Below, piece after piece: positions 4,512-41,209 of a DNA stretch of 41,492 nt. The notes beneath the pieces were generated by a model, which was given only the letters and a program-made list of their open reading frames with translations, was not told where the DNA came from and did no database searches. Every line of letters begins with the position of its first letter. Position 1 is the stretch's first letter. Source of the DNA: a virus; IMG/VR virus record IMGVR_UViG_3300025071_000017, positions 1-41,492 of that record; one strand, 5' to 3'. Made by a program: the position numbers and the translations under genes.

Positions 4512-5126
4512 ATGAGTAATTATTTAAAAATACCAATGTTAGAAACTGGATTAGTTCATGGTATGGATATAAGCACAGATTTATCAGCTGATACTACTAG
4601 TGCAACTGCTGGTACTTATACTGTAGGTACCGCGGCTGGAACATTAGCTATAACTAGAAGTGGTTCACCTGTAGTTCTTGGAGCTGCAGTTAAATTAACT
4701 GTAGTCGTAGGTAATGGACAGACAACTATTGGTGGAACCGGTGGATCTATCACAGTAGTAGATGGTGGTGAAGGTTTAGCGTCGGGAGACGTAATGACTA
4801 TCGCTGCTGCTGCTCTTGGTGGTTCAAGTACAGCTGCTACAGTAGGTGTAGATGCTGCTAATCTTAATAGCGGTTCTTCTAATTGGGTTGCTACTAGATA
4901 CATACCTGTTGATGACATCATTTTAACGAATCCTAGTGATTCTAACACTGTAGTTTTAACTGGTGCTACTTCAATGACATATACGATTACTTTTGGTAAT
5001 CAATTTGCATCTGAAGAACAAGTTGCTGGTTTAGTAGACGCTCAAGTTGCTAAAGCTTGGTCTGCTGAAAACTCTATTCCAGTAATGGAATTAAGTTTCA
5101 AACCTCAGTCAATTGTGTTGGCTTAA
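4512..5126 (+). CDS. capsid decoration / structural protein with Gly-rich beta module
   Basis: This 204-residue protein has N-terminal MSNYLKIPMLETGLVHGMDI, then a Gly/Ala/Thr/Val-rich beta module at about residues 30-115 (GSITVVDGGEGLASGDVMTI), then a C-terminal part (about 125-204) with VDD, a Thr/Tyr strand, a helix and a final strand that parallels the preceding 118-residue protein. The beta module matches modules in the products starting at 6041, 7109 and 8530. It is probably a virion surface or minor head protein. Codon bias resembles the capsid gene, which argues for high expression. Confidence 0.6.
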   Translation: MSNYLKIPMLETGLVHGMDISTDLSADTTSATAGTYTVGTAAGTLAITRSGSPVVLGAAVKLTVVVGNGQTTIGGTGGSITVVDGGEGLASGDVMTIAAAALGGSSTAATVGVDAANLNSGSSNWVATRYIPVDDIILTNPSDSNTVVLTGATSMTYTITFGNQFASEEQVAGLVDAQVAKAWSAENSIPVMELSFKPQSIVLA

Positions 5127-5136
5127 CAACAATAAT

Positions 5137-5168
5137 AAGATCCTGTTTAGGCAGGATCTTTTTTAATT
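5137..5168 (+). terminator. rho-independent terminator
   Basis: A perfect 9-bp inverted repeat AAGATCCTG/CAGGATCTT (5137-5145 with 5152-5160) with a 6-nt loop is followed by a T-run starting within the stem and extending to TTTTT. It lies 10 nt after the stop at 5126 and ends the capsid/decoration block. Confidence 0.85.
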
Positions 5169-5186
5169 ATTATATTATATTATATT
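5166..5186 (+). promoter_or_regulatory. AT-only TATTA-repeat leader (second copy)
   Basis: After the terminator T-run the sequence reads AATTATTATATTATATT plus one more TATTATATT phase, directly abutting the ATG at 5187. It repeats the leader at 1398-1419. Because it follows a strong terminator, the downstream gene needs either read-through or its own promoter, and this element could supply it. Confidence 0.35.
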
Positions 5187-5984
5187 ATGGAAACAAAAGA
5201 AAAGAAAAAGTCTGCGCCAAAGGCTGCAGCAAAACCTGAAGTAAAAAAAGATCTTTGGGAATATAAAGATAGAAATTATTATTTAAAAGGTGGTAAATCA
5301 CCTTTAACATATACATTACCTAGTAGACATTCTAATAGATTTAATCTTGTTTGGTTTGATCCAGACTTAGGTTATGAAAGAGAATTAAGATATGCTACTA
5401 ATCAAAAATCATGTTTTGTAGACGAACAAAAAGGACAAGTCACATTAAAGCATGTAGTATTTGAAAAAGGTATGTTAATTGTTAGAAAAGAACAAAGAAA
5501 TTTACAAGAGTTCTTGGAAAAACATCCTCACAAAGGTATTATCTTTGAAGAGTTCGATGCTGTTAGTGAAGCTATTGACGAAGTAGAAACTATAGAGCAT
5601 GAAATGATAGCTTTAAATTTAGCCTACGAAATGGATATAGATAAAGCAGAAGCTATATTAAGAACAGAAATTGGATCAGAAGTGAATAGATTAGGTTCTA
5701 AAGAACTTAAGAGAGATATACTTTTATTTGCTAAAAGAAATCCATTATTGTTTATTAGTTTAGCTGAAGACGAAAATGTAGAGCTTAGAAACTTTGCTAT
5801 TGTAGCTAGAGAGCAAGGTATAATTACCTTAGACGCTGATCAAAGAACATTTAAATGGGCAACTAATGGTCGTAAACTAATGACTACGCCATTTGATGAA
5901 AGTCCTTATTCTGCTATGGCTTCTTGGTTTAAAACCGACGAAGGACTTGAAGTTTACAAGTCTATAGAGAAAAAAATGAAATAA
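5187..5984 (+). CDS. conserved phage head/assembly-module protein, unknown function
   Basis: This 265-residue protein starts with a Lys/Ala-rich tail (METKEKKKSAPKAAAK), then a small beta-rich domain at about residues 28-95 (YYLKGGKSPLTYTLPSRHSN through LVWFDPDLGYERELRYATNQ), then a helical region to the C-terminus with LKRDILLFAKRNPLLFISL and FKTDEGLEVYKSIEKK. To my recollection this pattern is common in uncultured marine phage structural modules and has no assigned role. The gene lies between the decoration proteins and the tail-adaptor candidates, bracketed by terminators on both sides, which suggests that its dosage is controlled separately. Confidence 0.6.
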   Translation: METKEKKKSAPKAAAKPEVKKDLWEYKDRNYYLKGGKSPLTYTLPSRHSNRFNLVWFDPDLGYERELRYATNQKSCFVDEQKGQVTLKHVVFEKGMLIVRKEQRNLQEFLEKHPHKGIIFEEFDAVSEAIDEVETIEHEMIALNLAYEMDIDKAEAILRTEIGSEVNRLGSKELKRDILLFAKRNPLLFISLAEDENVELRNFAIVAREQGIITLDADQRTFKWATNGRKLMTTPFDESPYSAMASWFKTDEGLEVYKSIEKKMK

Positions 5985-8529: not shown

Positions 8530-11500
8530 ATGCCAGAAATTAAAAATACGTTCTTGCAGTCTAAGATGAATAAAGATCTTGACTCAAGAATTATACCAAA
8601 TGGACAATACAGAGATGCTCAGAATATTAATATAAATAAATCTGAAGGTGATGATGTTGGTGCTATTGAAAACATATTAGGCAATATACAAATAACTAAT
8701 TTTGGATTCACTGATACTACTACAGAAATAATTGGTAAATATTTTGATAATATAAATGAAAGGATATACGTATTTATTACTAACTATAACGATAGTTCTT
8801 TAGATAGACTTTCTAATAGTAGTGCATCTTATGCTAATAATGATCTTTCTAGCTCAACGGTAGGTGTTAATTCTGCTTTAGCTTATTATGATTTAGTTAC
8901 AAATAGTTATGGTATACTATTATTTGGATCATGGTTAAACTTTTCTAAAACACATGAAATACTAAATGTTACTTTATTAGAAAATTTACTTTATTGGACT
9001 GACAATAGAAATCAACCTAGAAAAATAAACATTGATAGAGCTTCTTCAGCTCAGTATGACTTAACAATAGCAGGCTATAATAATCCTTACTACACGAATG
9101 AAGATCAAATTTCAGTAGCTAAATATTATCCATATAAATCTGTTCAAGTAGTTCAAAACAATACCGTCACAGGTACTACAGTAACTACACCAGGATCAGG
9201 ATATGATGAGGTTTTAGTTCCTCAAGCTATAACACAAGCTGCTGGTCAAATAACAACATCAGGCTCTGGAACTGGATTAGAAGGTGTTTTAGAACTAATA
9301 GATCCTAGCACTGGTGCTTTACAATATTTTAGAATAACTAATGGTGGTAGTGGCTATGTTAATGGTGATACAATAAATATATTACCCTCAACTGGAACAG
9401 GTGTTTGCACGGTTACAGTTACAGCAACCGCAGGAATGAGAAGTAAATCTATAGAGTTATTACCAAACGCCTTTGCTATACGATTTCAAAGTACCGGACT
9501 TAAAGCTGCTGGAACTTCTATATCTATAAATCCTGGAACTGGCACAGGTGCTATATCATGGCTACCTCAATGGGTTAATGCTATTATAAACATAAGAGTT
9601 GGACCCACTGCAACGGTAACAGCTGGCACTTTTATTACTTCTGCTACAACTAGCGCCATAACACTTAGCCAACCTATTACAGTTGTTTCTACAGATGACG
9701 TGTACAATGTAGGAGTAAATCCTGATTACGATGTTAATTACGAAGGTGACAGAGATTTTTTAAAAGATAAATTTGTAAAATTTGCTTATAGATTTAAATT
9801 TGATGATAATGAATACTCTTTAATATCGCCATTTACTCAAGAGTGTTTTGTACCTAATCAAGATGGTTATTTTTTAAGTGGAGATCAAGCTAGTACTTTT
9901 GATAGTACAATAGTAGACTTTATGGAAAATAAAATTGATTTTGTTCAATTTAGAATACCTGCACCTGACAAACTAGACGGAACATCAATGAATTGGTCAG
10001 AAGCTAATAGCTTACTTAAAATACAGTCTTTAGATATTATATACACAGATTCTGATGGTGTTGCTTTAAAAGTAGTAGATACATTAACTCAAGAGCAAAT
10101 ATTAAACAATAATGATGGAACTACATATCTATATAGCTATAAGTCAAGAAAACCTATTAGAACATTACCTGAGAAAGATTTAACTAGAGTATCAGATAAA
10201 GTACCCGCAAGAGCTCAAACTCAAGAAACTGTAGGTAATAGAATAATCTACGCTAATTACACAGCAAATTTAGGAAGGCCTGAAAACTTAGATTATAGTG
10301 TACAAGTTTCAGATAAAATAGCAGCAAACGATCCTGCAACAGGTCTTGCTACTCCTAAAACATTACAAATAGAATACCCTAATAGTAACGTTAAGCAGAA
10401 TAGAACTTATCAAGTGGGTGTTGTTCTTTGCGATAGATATGGTAGACAATCAGATGTGATATTATCATCTAATGATGCTGACGCTGTGTTGAGTGGTTAT
10501 GGTGGCTCTACATATTATCATGAATATTTTACTGAAAATGATCCATTAAGTACTTTTGTAGGTAGTGCAAGAACAGATATTTGGGATGGTGATAGTTTAA
10601 AAGTACTATTTAACCAAGTGATACCATCAACTTCTCCAGTTGAAGGTTATGCAGGCTTATACAATACTAATGGAAGTAATCCAATTGGGTGGTATAGCTA
10701 TAAAATAGTCGTAAAACAACAAGAACAAGAATATTACAATGCTTATTTACCTGGTATACTAAACGGTTATCCTATATCTATTAGTCCAGGTTTTGAAAAT
10801 ATTGCTTACGCAGGGGTATTTAGTATTAATACAGCTCATGCTGTAATCATTGGTGATAATATAAATAAGGTACCTAGAAATTTACAAGAAGTAGGTCCAG
10901 AAGATAAAGAATTTTCATCAGATGTAAACTTTTTTACTAGAGTAACTCAAACAAACTTTTATAATGGAACAGCTGCATCTAGTCAATATTATCCAAATGT
11001 TAGTCCTGATTCAGTGTCTGTTATAGGTACTTATACAGATTTAAAATTAAGTAGAACAAATCCTCAGGACTCTACTGGTGGTGTAGACTGGACAACTATA
11101 GTTAATGGAAATAGTAAAGGTGATTTAAATTCTTTAAGTCCTTTTTATAATATTCCAGGCAATAATTTTCCAGGAGTTGCAGGGACTCCTACGGTGTCTG
11201 ATGCTCAAGTTCCTTTTGAGTCTGGTAATAATCAATTAATAGCTAGATTATCTACTAGAAAATTGACTGGTATAATAGGTGGTATGAATAGCACAGGTAA
11301 TTTTAGCCCCTGGAGTGGTGGTACAAACGGAACAAATAATGTTTTATGGTATCAAAACCCAGGTCTTTCTATTATAGAAACAGAGCCTGTGACTTCTGCG
11401 TTAGATATATATTATGAAACTTCCACTAGCCAATCAATATCTCAATTAAACGCTTTTATAATATCAGGTGATATTGCTACTCCAGCAAGCGTGCAGCCAT

Positions 11501-27508: not shown

Positions 27509-27543
27509 AAAAAAGGGGAGGTCATTACGACTTCCCCTTTTTA
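27509..27543. terminator. bidirectional terminator between convergent operons
   Basis: A long inverted repeat with arms AAAAGGGGAGGTC and GACTTCCCCTTTT has one G-U pair and a 5-nt loop. It is flanked by A-runs on the left and T-runs on the right, so it gives a stem plus U-run on both strands. It sits between the giant protein gene (stop at 27449, + strand) and the last leftward gene (stop at 27547), the expected location of a shared terminator. Confidence 0.88.
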
Positions 27544-32614: not shown

Positions 32615-32645
32615 TATTATCCGAATTGTATCGTATTTAGTTTGT
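32615..32645 (-). promoter_or_regulatory. repeated promoter-like element, copy 1 (before thyA-like gene)
   Basis: On the - strand the box ACAAACTAAATACGA (32631-32645), 9 nt, then GATAATA (32615-32621), 5 nt, then ATG at 32609. The stop codon of the upstream 83-residue gene is embedded in the box. Identical box, spacing and start-codon distance recur at 39668-39698 and 41179-41209. The first six bases and GATAAT are 18 nt apart, a sigma-70-like geometry that would place the transcript start about at the ATG. Confidence 0.7.
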
Positions 32646-37920: not shown

Positions 37921-38061
37921 TTACTTTATATCTTTAGTACTATGTGTCACCCCATATAACGTAGCTAGGTATAACTCATGTTCATTTTTTAAACCTCTTG
38001 AGTTTATTTCTTCATCAAGCCATTCTTGGCTTTTTCTTAATATCCAGTCTGAATTTTTCAT
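37921..38061 (-). CDS. 46-residue hypothetical protein
   Basis: The product is MKNSDWILRKSQEWLDEEIN then SRGLKNEHELYLATLYGVTH and STKDIK, a helical charged protein. It was found by reading the gap between longer frames. The start overlaps the stop of the 57-residue gene upstream (ATGA), and the stop is 8 nt before the HTH gene start, so it fits the operon exactly. No family is recognised. Confidence 0.6.
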   Translation of the reverse strand: MKNSDWILRKSQEWLDEEINSRGLKNEHELYLATLYGVTHSTKDIK

Positions 38062-38231
38062 AAAAATTTTAAATGGTTTTTATATTTTAATAATTGTTTT
38101 CTTTTTTCTAAGTTTACAAGACCAGTATCCATTGCTTCTTGGAATATTTCATTTTGCAATTCTTGCATTCTATGCGATACATATCTTTTATGAGATAAAC
38201 ATCGTCTTTTTTTCATAAATTTCTCTATCAT
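38058..38231 (-). CDS. 57-residue basic hypothetical protein
   Basis: The product is MIEKFMKKRRCLSHKRYVSH then RMQELQNEIFQEAMDTGLVN and a Lys-rich end. A GTG at 38249 would extend it by six residues but would put the conserved hairpin at 38242-38264 inside the coding region; the ATG at 38231 lies exactly 10 nt after that hairpin, as in the sister element, so it is preferred. The protein is basic and helical and its function is unknown. It may be controlled by the hairpin. Confidence 0.6.
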   Translation of the reverse strand: MIEKFMKKRRCLSHKRYVSHRMQELQNEIFQEAMDTGLVNLEKRKQLLKYKNHLKFL

Positions 38232-38241
38232 ACCTACAAAT

Positions 38242-38264
38242 GCCCGCACCTTGTGAGTGCGAGC
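38242..38264 (-). promoter_or_regulatory. conserved 5'-leader hairpin, copy A
   Basis: On the - strand GCTCGCAC, loop TCACAAG, GTGCGGGC form an 8-bp stem (one G-U pair); an extra ACAA/TTGT pairing lengthens it. The ATG of the 57-residue gene begins exactly 10 nt after it. The sister hairpin at 39926-39948 differs by a compensating C-G to T-A pair and one loop base and has the same 10-nt spacing. It is probably a translational control or protein-binding site. Confidence 0.7.
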
Positions 38265-38269
38265 TTGTT

Positions 38270-38389
38270 TTATTTTTCCCAGCTGTACCGGGTTTTATCT
38301 CTTATTTTATTTAGCTTATCAATTAGTTTGTAAGCTACGTCTTCGCTGATCTCATCAGCATAGAACATATCATATATTAGTCTTCTCAT
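38270..38389 (-). CDS. 39-residue hypothetical protein
   Basis: The product is MRRLIYDMFYADEISEDVAY then KLIDKLNKIRDKTRYSWEK, an amphipathic helical protein with acidic centre and basic end. The start overlaps the stop of the zinc-ribbon gene (ATGA); the stop lies 5 nt before the conserved hairpin. It is too short for usual gene callers, but the coupling and composition support it. The function is unknown. Confidence 0.62.
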   Translation of the reverse strand: MRRLIYDMFYADEISEDVAYKLIDKLNKIRDKTRYSWEK

Positions 38390-38526
38390 AAGTCTTCTTC
38401 TAAACAATCACCGCATATATCGCAGAAATCGTGGTCTTCTTGGTTCATAATTTTATTACACATTTCGCATGTAGGCTTGCCCCACGATTCAGTAGAGGCA
38501 AGACCTGAGTAGTTACAATTATTCAT
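38386..38526 (-). CDS. 46-residue zinc-ribbon protein
   Basis: The product is MNNCNYSGLASTESWGKPTC then EMCNKIMNQEDHDFCDICGD and CLEEDL. Cys20/Cys23 and Cys35/Cys38 form two CxxC knuckles (plus Cys41), a one-zinc ribbon. The frame opens at 38601, but that region lies inside the ligase gene; the ATG at 38526 overlaps the ligase stop by only 8 nt and gives a sensible protein. It is likely a small nucleic-acid or protein-binding adaptor. Confidence 0.68.
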   Translation of the reverse strand: MNNCNYSGLASTESWGKPTCEMCNKIMNQEDHDFCDICGDCLEEDL

Positions 38527-39364
38527 AATTACGTATTGCTTTGTAATGTGGATGTCTGTAACTACCTGCTTTAGTTCGCTCGAAGTATGTAAATGTAGCA
38601 TACTGACCGATGTAGTCGTGTATATTTTCTAGCATATTAGCTAAGTCTTTGTAATTATAGCCTTTACCTGGAGGACAACCGAATTTGTTTCCTTCATAAT
38701 CTTGCATAATAAACTTACCTAGTGTACCTGCACGCTTGCCTTTACCTTCATCGTAGCCTATAATTGTAGCTTCTGCATCGTGAAAGTCTTTAAACTTCAT
38801 AAGATCCCATGATCTTGTACCTTTGTACTTGCCTGATGGTGTTCTGTATATAGAGCCTTCATAACCTAGTTTAAGGTTTTTAGCATGAAATCTTTGTGCA
38901 TCATCAAAGTCAGTTGCTAATCTAGTAGATGTTACATCTAGTATTGAACTGTTTTTAAATGATGGCTCAGCTAGTAAGAACAAGTTTCTGTCTACATAAG
39001 TAGCCATTTTTAGACTTGCTACATCGTACATGTGATATTGTACTAGTTCTGCAGCTTCAGCTCTGTCAGCATCTGTTGGTTTTCTCTTTTTAACAAGAGA
39101 TATAATCTTCTCGAAGTCATCTTTTAGTCCGTGGTTGTATAGCTCGCCATCAAGCACAGTTGTAGGGTTTTTTGCAAAGAAAGGCTTTAGAGCTTGTTCA
39201 ATGTGTTCTACATTCATAAACTGGTTGTTAGCACGAGAGAACGCGCCTTTGGCAGTAAATAGACAACGTACGCCATCTAGTTTTGGTTGTATAAACGCAG
39301 GGTAATCTGCTTTATCTTCATTGTATTTATGCGCTAGCATAGCTTTAATATTTTCCACTTCCAT
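38519..39364 (-). CDS. ATP-dependent DNA ligase
   Basis: This 281-residue ligase joins nicks during replication and recombination. Motif I KLDG has the adenylated Lys28 with Arg33. Further motifs are LDGELY with Glu74 (motif III region), YHMYDV, YEGSIYR with Glu169 (motif IV) and LMKFK with Lys190/Lys192 (motif V). An OB-fold C-terminal domain (about 197-281, IIGYDEGKGKRAGTLGKFI) follows. It is near the minimal size of phage/viral ligases, without extra DNA-binding domains. It overlaps the upstream 105-residue gene by 20 nt. Confidence 0.92.
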   Translation of the reverse strand: MEVENIKAMLAHKYNEDKADYPAFIQPKLDGVRCLFTAKGAFSRANNQFMNVEHIEQALKPFFAKNPTTVLDGELYNHGLKDDFEKIISLVKKRKPTDADRAEAAELVQYHMYDVASLKMATYVDRNLFLLAEPSFKNSSILDVTSTRLATDFDDAQRFHAKNLKLGYEGSIYRTPSGKYKGTRSWDLMKFKDFHDAEATIIGYDEGKGKRAGTLGKFIMQDYEGNKFGCPPGKGYNYKDLANMLENIHDYIGQYATFTYFERTKAGSYRHPHYKAIRNYE

Positions 39365-39662
39365 GATTTAATTTAAAATTTATTACTTCTATTTTCTTTT
39401 GTATCATTGCTGCTTTTTCGTATTCTTCTCTATCTTCAAAGATCATCATAATAGTCTGCAGTCTAGCTAGTTCGCCTACAAGTCTTTCTTCTTGATTTAA
39501 GCCTAGTTCGTCTTGTTTATTGCTTGTAATATCAGATATTGTGTAGCCTTGACTTACTAGTTTTTGTATTTGTTCAGCATATTCTACGTCTGCGCCTTCT
39601 TGCTTTTCCATTATTTTATCAAATAATAGTTGAGCTAATTTTTCTATTTCGTTTTCTTTCAT
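39345..39662 (-). CDS. 105-residue protein with UVR-like helical hairpin
   Basis: The helical acidic protein begins MKENEIEKLAQLLFDKIMEK. Residues about 76-98 (EDREEYEKAAMIQKKIEVIN) match the pattern of the UVR interaction motif of UvrB/UvrC-type proteins (ExYExAAxxxxxI). A role as an adaptor is possible but unproved. The gene has its own copy of the repeated promoter-like element directly upstream and leads into the ligase gene, so it probably heads a transcription unit. Confidence 0.65.
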   Translation of the reverse strand: MKENEIEKLAQLLFDKIMEKQEGADVEYAEQIQKLVSQGYTISDITSNKQDELGLNQEERLVGELARLQTIMMIFEDREEYEKAAMIQKKIEVINFKLNHGSGKY

Positions 39663-39667
39663 ATTAA

Positions 39668-39698
39668 TATTATCTGTTAGTAATCGTATTTAGTTTGT
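39668..39698 (-). promoter_or_regulatory. repeated promoter-like element, copy 2 (before the 105-residue gene)
   Basis: The box ACAAACTAAATACGA (39684-39698) is followed by exactly 9 nt, GATAATA (39668-39674), 5 nt and the ATG at 39662. Here the upstream stop (39700-39702) is just outside the box, so conservation of the box cannot be explained by coding constraint. Copy 2 heads the ligase-containing unit. Confidence 0.72.
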
Positions 39699-39699
39699 G

Positions 39700-39915
39700 T
39701 TATACTGATTGTAGTTTATCAAGTCTGTTTAGTTTTTCTTTATTAGTTAAACTATTCCAATCGCTTGGTGGTTGCCAATCTGGTATACTAGCTCTCATTG
39801 TAGAGAAAACTATTCTTTCTTTATAAGCTATAGCTTTGTCTTTTAGCTTATCTTCTTGTTTAGTGTCTAAGTCACCTAGTAACATAAACGCTTGCATTAT
39901 TCCTATATTATTCAT
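39700..39915 (-). CDS. 71-residue hypothetical protein under hairpin leader
   Basis: The product is MNNIGIMQAFMLLGDLDTKQ then EDKLKDKAIAYKERIVFSTM, later PPSDWNSLTNKEKLNRLDKL. It is a helical protein with no family recognised. The ATG lies 10 nt after the conserved hairpin and at the 3' foot of a larger multibranch leader, suggesting regulated translation. It ends immediately before the promoter-like element. Confidence 0.6.
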   Translation of the reverse strand: MNNIGIMQAFMLLGDLDTKQEDKLKDKAIAYKERIVFSTMRASIPDWQPPSDWNSLTNKEKLNRLDKLQSV

Positions 39916-40000
39916 ACCACGAAAAGCCCGTACCTTTTGAGTACGAGCTAATGTTACTTTCGTTACCTGCTGGTCGGGCCTATTCAGTAACTATCGTGGA
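39916..40000 (-). promoter_or_regulatory. structured multibranch mRNA leader (possible RNA switch)
   Basis: On the - strand an outer stem CCACGA/TCGTGG (39994-39999 with 39917-39922) encloses a 5-bp stem GTTAC/GTAAC (39987-39991 with 39962-39966) and the hairpin at 39926-39948. An internal GCCCG (39975-39979) can pair perfectly with CGGGC (39926-39930) of the hairpin's 3' arm, an arrangement exclusive of the hairpin. The leader fills the gap between two genes and ends one base before the ATG at 39915. It lacks a tRNA T-loop. No known riboswitch class was recognised. Confidence 0.55.
39926..39948 (-). promoter_or_regulatory. conserved 5'-leader hairpin, copy B
   Basis: On the - strand GCTCGTAC, loop TCAAAAG, GTACGGGC form an 8-bp stem with a 7-nt loop, 10 nt before ATG. 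Compared with copy A the fourth-from-loop pair region carries a C-G to T-A change on both arms, preserving pairing, and the loop differs by one base (C to A). The two copies are embedded in otherwise different sequence. Confidence 0.72.
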
Positions 40001-40017
40001 AACTAAACTACTATTAA

Positions 40018-40467
40018 CTAACTAACAGTCTGATTAATCTCTTCTGATTCAGTAAATTCTTCCTTTAACCATGCTAATTCTGCCATGTCAAAGTTGTAAT
40101 CACTGTCTTCATTCATAATTTCGTCATATATCTTGTCTGCTATTTCTTGAAATTCTTCTAGCAGTACATCATCAAAGTATATATCATCTAAGAAGTATTG
40201 ATCTGCATATATTACGCAGTGGCCATTAGAATAATGTACCATTTCCATAATAGCTTCAGCTACGTCGGAGTCATAATAATATACATCTTCTGATATACAA
40301 ATACTTTTCATGTCATTAGTTACTACCCATAAAGAATAGCCATCTACAGTTGTTTCTTCGTATGCATATATATCTGCGTTGCCATAAGCATTTTCATCTA
40401 TTTTTATGCCGTGGTATTTTTTTACAGCATCTATTATTTTTTCTTGTGTTGGTTCTTTTGTTTCCAT
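40018..40467 (-). CDS. 149-residue highly acidic hypothetical protein
   Basis: The alpha/beta protein begins METKEPTQEKIIDAVKKYHG, with a beta-rich centre (YAYEETTVDGYSLWVVTNDM) and a very acidic C-terminal half (FLDDIYFDDVLLEEFQEIAD and EEFTESEEINQTVS). The strong excess of Asp/Glu is reminiscent of phage proteins that mimic DNA or bind host factors, but there is no direct evidence for that here. It starts after a short A/T leader. Confidence 0.62.
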   Translation of the reverse strand: METKEPTQEKIIDAVKKYHGIKIDENAYGNADIYAYEETTVDGYSLWVVTNDMKSICISEDVYYYDSDVAEAIMEMVHYSNGHCVIYADQYFLDDIYFDDVLLEEFQEIADKIYDEIMNEDSDYNFDMAELAWLKEEFTESEEINQTVS

Positions 40468-41178: not shown

Positions 41179-41209
41179 TATTATCTTTAAGTGTTCGTAT
41201 TTAGTTTGT
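41179..41209 (-). promoter_or_regulatory. repeated promoter-like element, copy 3
   Basis: The box ACAAACTAAATACGA (41195-41209), 9 nt, GATAATA (41179-41185), 5 nt, then the ATG at 41173. The TAA stop of the upstream gene lies inside the box, as in copy 1. The 9-nt spacers differ among the three copies, so the two boxes are conserved independently of a longer repeat. Confidence 0.72.

Follow-up and report, generated by a model that had tools for sequence, protein, structure and literature searches.

Two early-region hairpins of a viral genome appear to be helices of a three-way-junction RNA with exchangeable modules

Each of two short hairpins in a 41,492-nt contig of a marine Flavobacteriia-type phage (IMG/VR record IMGVR_UViG_3300025071_000017; this whole stretch is called the window below) is, as read from its relatives, helix P2 of a larger, predicted three-way-junction RNA. 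Sequence comparison demonstrates the scaffold with its covariation and shows putative modules being exchanged among copies, genes and scaffolds; that RNA domains apparently move from one scaffold to another is our main result. The three-way-junction structure is well supported by the same comparison, while its function is something that we infer. That the RNA itself is the likely product, a decoy or effector scaffold made from early transcripts, seems to us an evenly balanced proposition.

The two hairpins had been singled out by a first-pass annotation at 38242-38264 and 39926-39948 on the minus strand, and both are present there, reading GCTCGCAC-TCACAAG-GTGCGGGC and GCTCGTAC-TCAAAAG-GTACGGGC, respectively. 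As described in that annotation, both have an 8-pair stem and a 7-nt loop and stand exactly 10 nt before an ATG, and the both-arm C-G versus U-A change between the two copies is real (GTAC/GTAC versus GCAC/GTGC). One of the eight pairs is U.G, and the two ATGs have their first base at 38231 and 39915, respectively. A ninth U.G pair reduces the effective loop to 5 nt. On the coding strand, the stem is followed by UUUU in element 1 (hairpin 39926-39948) and by AUUU in element 2 (hairpin 38242-38264). A degenerate pattern covering both hairpins, with up to three mismatches allowed, matched only these two sites in the 41.5-kb window, for which shuffles gave an expectation of 0.00. Hairpins with 8 bp, a 7-nt loop and at least five G-C pairs number only three in the window, two of them being the hairpins described here. 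The pair is not due to chance.

The portal protein encoded in the window is closest to those of podoviruses of Flavobacterium, Cellulophaga, Maribacter and Tenacibaculum. From about 27.7 kb, the minus strand carries genes for ribonucleotide reductase, a MazG-like protein, thymidylate synthase, a primase/helicase, ERF and an ATP-dependent DNA ligase; the label "early" is given to this block because of its replication and nucleotide gene content. The location of the hairpins within it supports their earlier placement in an early region. They lie among small genes without assigned function, one on each side of the ligase gene:

38058-38231, minus strand: 57-aa gene, directly 3' of element 2
38519-39364, minus strand: ATP-dependent DNA ligase, between both elements
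39700-39915, minus strand: 71-aa gene, directly 3' of element 1; a KAFMLLGDL-type family with homologues found
40018-40467, minus strand: 149-aa gene, directly 5' of element 1; its stop codon is followed by the element leader TAGTAGTTTAGTTT

Neither the 71-aa nor the 57-aa gene had a match in PHROG or Pfam. Elsewhere in the window, a strong hairpin (GGGGAGGT/ACTTCCCC, 27515-27537, plus strand) stands where the late and early gene blocks converge and is probably the terminator that they share.

Reading the relatives side by side gave the element the form (A)CCACGA - slot A - GCTCNNAC - slot B - GTNNGGGC - TTTT - CGTGGTA. The outer strands, CCACGA and TCGTGG, pair as helix P1, which encloses slot A and P2. 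The element follows the stop codon of the preceding gene and in most cases leads up to the next start codon. Its parts in the window are assigned as follows:

39916-39999, minus strand: element 1, 84 nt, comprising P1, slot A with module M4, P2, UUUU, P1 and a final U (fold with P1 6/6 and P2 8/8, z -4.3; relatives)
39994-39999, minus strand: element 1, P1 5' strand CCACGA, pairing with 39917-39922 (conserved or compensated across relatives)
39917-39922, minus strand: element 1, P1 3' strand TCGTGG (fold and relatives)
39949-39993, minus strand: element 1, slot A with module M4 (arm 39953-39991, GTTACTGAATAGGCCCGACCAGCAGGTAACGAAAGTAAC); relatives put other modules here
39926-39948, minus strand: element 1, P2 GCTCGTAC/GTACGGGC, with the loop 39934-39940 (TCAAAAG) as slot B, replaced in relatives by up to 53 nt
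38242-38264, minus strand: element 2, P2 GCTCGCAC/GTGCGGGC with loop TCACAAG (pattern and model match)
38232-38240, minus strand: element 2, probable P1 3' strand TTTGTAGGT, pairing with 38327-38335 in the predicted fold
38327-38335, minus strand: element 2, tentative P1 5' strand GCTTACAAA, inside the end of the upstream ORF (9 pairs with 38232-38240)

The 5' strand of P1 in element 2 is only tentative because, for that copy alone, the shuffle p value is ~0.1. P1 of the CTACGA/TCGTAG type occurs at the homologous site in L031, L033, L034 and L013, and homologues of the P2 of element 2 occupy the same site in L002, L009, L010 and L011 and, with other stems, in L013, L031, L033 and L034. Of 54 elements, P1 forms in the folds of 49 and P2 in those of 50, at a mean z of -4.4; these figures are partly circular since P1 was picked by scanning. 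When single copies were compared with shuffles, P1 was mostly not significant, and its support therefore comes from the comparison between copies. A leader beginning with ACAAACTAAATACGA is repeated before genes of the window (32631-32645, 39684-39698, and 41195-41209, minus strand) and directly follows the element in some relatives (L005, L059, L196); its pairing with TTTAGTTT could extend P1. Many related contigs end less than ~3 kb from an element, and the window itself ends 1.5 kb past element 1, as if assembly breaks at sites that vary in the population.

The exact hairpin pattern was found in 15 other viral contig stretches, for which our estimate from information content gives an expectation far below 1. 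P2 is 100% paired in 17/17 distinct skeletons, with no unpaired P2 substitution among these homologues, and eight of them carry a double-sided change. All four combinations were seen at the two variable P2 pairs, L034 having GCTCACAC/GTGTGGGC. For P1, divergent homologues have CTACGAA/TTCGTAG, a C-G to U-A change relative to copy 1, and copy 2 of the window shows a G-C to A-U change. With homologues of site 3 added, double-sided changes fall at four pairs of P1 and P2. In total, 97.3% of the P1 and P2 cells are paired, compared with 31-32% when the partner was slid by one column, and the observed covariation score and paired percentage were reached in 0 of 500 shuffles; these counts are inflated by related sequences, the P1 5' strands were partly chosen by eye, and the 3' half was the search key, which makes its invariance partly a matter of ascertainment. 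A search of 46 related records with two mismatches allowed gave just one variant of the 3' half. Collectively, the compensatory changes in both P1 and P2 support the selected RNA structure that had been proposed for the hairpins.

MAFFT alignment of the minimal elements (A4) misplaced P1, and the covariance model (R1) was built from trimmed skeletons. In the window, this skeleton model scored strongly only at the two known elements (51 and 38 bits, the trimmed skeletons of both being in the training set), and it also finds divergent homologues just downstream of the ligase gene, the position of window copy 2, in L031, L013, L034 and L033. A complementary arm lies beside the 3' pattern in 51/56 distinct viral cases, whereas bacterial genomes, in which 111 pattern matches in 99 stretches are about the chance expectation, have such an arm in only 14/111. 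The 3' pattern GTNNGGGCTTTTCGTGGT is repeated in Phycicoccus jejuensis (L100, L133, L141, L155, L156), spaced mostly at multiples of 51 nt, and in Nostocoides japonicum (L122, L132), spaced at 73-78 nt; this is presumably an unrelated actinobacterial repeat.

Lengths vary in both sockets: 0 to ~130 nt for slot A, which separates P1 from P2, and 7-53 nt for slot B, the loop of P2. In L033 and others, a whole arm of 30-53 nt stands in place of the P2 loop with the stem kept, and the loops of the window appear to be merely minimal slot-B content. The idea that a protein would recognize the loop as an operator is not supported, given this free replacement, even by whole arms. A boxB-like loop operator was set aside on the variation of the loops (TCAAAAG, TCACAAG, TTAACCG, CGTAAATG, whole arms), a pseudoknot of loop and tail because the two copies would need different registers and other sequences can take the loop's place, and domain V of a group II intron, despite a slight AGC...GUACGG resemblance, because there is no bulge and the pairing is wrong.

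When 48 elements were sorted, their upstream contexts fell into 11 classes, slot A into 29, slot B into 12 and downstream contexts into 13; of the six pairwise comparisons of these groupings, five contained four-gamete sets. Such sets are the mark of reassortment, the modules in the sockets apparently recombining independently of the flanking genes. Element copies stand in tandem with no gene between them in L083 and L062, and all copies in ligase-oriented loci are on the ligase strand. The named modules include M1, M4 and the GAACTGGTGAGGGATCG module. In M1 (…ATGAGTGTGAT…GTAACTYGA…), 9/16 pairs are compensated; M4, which is also found in L007, L059 and, in degenerate form, L080, has 4/9 predicted pairs compensated in four sequences only. 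As judged from these changes, the modules are probably structured in their own right. An internal-loop module, CCGCGGC/GCAAAGG, was seen by eye in both strand orders, a circular permutation of loop and closing end (L001, L005, L008 and L069 versus L202, L223, L224 and L189), which suggests that the internal loop is the conserved part.

The scan for M1 also matched RNAs other than the hairpin element, and modules of the element were seen in no fewer than two further RNA scaffolds of marine phages. In L187 (3729-3834, minus strand) and L191 (5069-5174, minus strand), M1 lies inside the tRNA-like domain of tmRNA without the rest of tmRNA, in RNAs of ~106 nt that score 40.4 and 34.3 bits, respectively, against the Rfam tmRNA model (gathering score, 47). 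The tRNA-like domain is present in this sister scaffold, and ~106 nt leave no room for an mRNA-like domain. The 3' end of the tmRNA-like domain was found in 62 viral contig stretches. These minimal tmRNA-like RNAs measure 71-152 nt, have G3-U70 and A73 (alanine identity features) and a 3' ACTA, and contain one exchangeable module in place of the rest of tmRNA. Their socket holds many different modules; the closing stems usually differ from one RNA to another but remain complementary, with 35 stem classes among 56 RNAs. ARAGORN detected no tmRNA or tRNA in the loci of this scaffold; it found none in the window either, where the P2 loops are not T-loops of the TTCRANY type and the element has no tRNA-like T-arm.

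Furthermore, exact shared 12-mers connect modules of the hairpin element with the tmRNA-like scaffold and with a third scaffold, ACGAGGTGAGGGTGGTA…ACGGCAGGATAAAG…CCTGCCCGACCTCGT. This third scaffold, ACGAGGTGAGGGTGGTA[..]ACGGCAGGATAAAG[..]CCACACCTGCCCGACCTCGT, has two variable slots and was found in L188 (about 5050-5450, minus strand) and L192-L195. Back-to-back arrays of tRNA-like and other structured scaffolds, each with a variable insert, were observed in L205 (about 8600-9060), L206, L214 and L187. A small CxC…CxxC zinc-ribbon-like protein with a basic C terminus (MYCRCG…CVDCST…HKTGNTIQIVSQE…WRRK) is encoded just upstream of the RNA arrays or beside site 2 of the element, at 35 or more loci within L197-L256 and in L003, L015, L054, L060, L069 and L082. 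A Pfam search with it gave no match; it is a possible partner.

The RNA itself is probably the product because the modules persist while flanking genes, loops, start-codon context and scaffolds change, and because copies stand in tandem with no gene between them; RNA rather than DNA is favoured because G.U pairs occur in P1 and P2. In this proposal, the element would be encoded in the sense strand of an early operon, with the P1, P2 and UUUU junction as a fixed scaffold and with slots A and B, the latter at the P2 tip, carrying exchangeable structured RNA modules. The RNA, a domain of the early transcript that may be excised from it, would display its arms to bind host proteins or RNAs, the arms being the putative working parts and the scaffold their holder. 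Arm diversity would arise by recombination at conserved scaffold sequence. From its early-region location, diversity and rapid turnover, the likeliest role would be to help in taking over the host or in countering its defences, as a decoy or an effector; possible targets include RNA-binding or RNA-cleaving defence proteins and the translation apparatus. More broadly, we tentatively propose, as a possibility short of an even chance, that marine Flavobacteriia-type phages have a combinatorial RNA system, in which a few standard scaffolds, sometimes arrayed, would share a library of modules swapped by recombination, yielding fast-diversifying effectors or decoys directed at the host's RNA-based defences or at its machinery for translation.

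Among the points against the RNA as product, an ATG directly follows P1 in 35 of the 48 copies, both window copies among them, which fits cis-regulation. The main rival to the RNA as product, rather unlikely in our judgement, is a leader that folds ahead of the start codon and so regulates how the following early gene is translated, or attenuates it, with a protein or RNA on the modules as a possible mediator; the elements are, moreover, always in sense orientation. However, the downstream genes are of many unrelated kinds, copies stand in tandem without an intervening gene (L083), and the same modules occur in tRNA-like RNAs that are no start-codon leaders. The 13 downstream classes and the 13/48 copies without an ATG also differ from the single gene family and fixed start-codon geometry of a riboswitch-like leader. 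The hairpins had first been read as an undescribed cis-regulatory RNA or operator. The undescribed, selected RNA structure in an early region is supported; a mere start-codon hairpin is not, given that the downstream gene varies among relatives and that some copies are in tandem or have no ATG there, and neither is a loop-binding operator. The 10-nt spacing to the ATG is common among relatives but not invariant, the ATG being absent from its fixed place in 13 of 48 copies.

A quite improbable reading is that the element punctuates early mRNAs as a substrate of a host RNase, separating them as tRNAs do and leaving near-leaderless messages. The tight fit between stop and start (for example, TAA|CCACGA…TCGTGGT|ATG in L060) is in line with this, as are tRNA-like RNAs at comparable positions in related loci, but the large library of conserved exchangeable modules would be left unexplained, and neither a T-arm nor any other tRNA signature is present in the hairpin element. 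We consider it very improbable that the element is mobile DNA or a recombination site (MITE-, PeSL- or attC-like) with structure as a mere by-product. Gene neighbours are indeed shuffled around it, there are several copies per genome, and it has a terminal inverted repeat (ACCACGA/TCGTGGT) and nested insertions; against this, all copies in ligase-oriented loci have one orientation relative to transcription rather than the either-orientation placement of MITEs, stem types are site specific with compensatory changes, G.U pairs and substitutions that preserve them are meaningless at the DNA level, and an unsystematic look noticed no target-site duplication. An intrinsic terminator, in which P2 and UUUU would end the upstream transcript, has hardly any chance of being correct: a G+C-rich hairpin precedes four U residues, but a terminator scan of the coding strand was negative at both hairpins, the tract of element 2 is only AUUU, the U tract runs directly into the P1 strand UCGUGG, and the next gene begins 7-10 nt on, with no room for a promoter.

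Searches of Rfam 15 with the window, the relatives and, at a permissive threshold, each element alone gave no relevant match at the gathering cut-off; permissive matches at the elements, such as Thr_leader at 13 bits, were at chance level. The element was not found in deposited phages, and the skeleton model had no match in Manatee Spring phage ctfjg026 (whole record) or Flavobacterium phage elemoA 5-9B (first 45 kb). No description of it was found in the open literature. Within that open-access scope, and with the caution that function is what we infer, we regard the putative modular-scaffold principle as new.

PeSL cassettes, the closest known idea, treated by Arbiol in 2010 and Comeau in 2014, are reportedly defined by an early promoter and a terminator stem-loop. 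They resemble the element in being a short repeated stem-loop between small early genes, with neighbour genes shuffled around a conserved element; such junctions were found here as well (11 upstream and 13 downstream classes, with a four-gamete set). In contrast, no terminator was found at the window element, which has a three-way-junction fold and sockets with exchangeable structured modules. A sigma-70-type promoter scan near the elements was not above chance, promoters of Bacteroidota or of phages lying outside that consensus. Because the element fails the terminator test, it was not filed as a PeSL, which the title of one paper presents as a promoter-terminator motif of T4-type phages (title as cited in PMC4503421). 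The tRNA-like domain of tmRNA (Rfam RF00023) is approached by the sister-phage scaffold (L187, L191 and more), in which acceptor, D-like region and T-arm are retained and the same modules recur, but this scaffold has no mRNA-like part or pseudoknots, ends in 3' ACTA and falls below the gathering cut-off, and the window element has no T-arm. GOLLD and ROOL are large phage-associated structured RNAs, unexplained and of fixed architecture, for which we know of no module exchange. They, too, are unexplained structured RNAs carried by phages, but they are much larger, and the element has no Rfam match. In fungal mitochondria, mobile GC clusters and double-hairpin elements are G+C-rich and nested in an A+T-rich genome. 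The element likewise forms nested G+C-rich hairpins in an A+T-rich genome; unlike these clusters, it is strictly in sense orientation, and it combines a fixed scaffold with conserved modules whose stems are compensated.

Point changes within a fixed architecture are the usual way in which structured RNAs evolve, whereas in this family RNA domains seem to move among scaffolds much as domains do among proteins. The element family may also serve as a compact test, provided by nature, of how modular RNA can be. If the RNAs act as effectors, these phages would possess an RNA counterpart of the small early anti-host proteins, and their modules would form a library of natural binding motifs ready for use in fishing directly for the targets.
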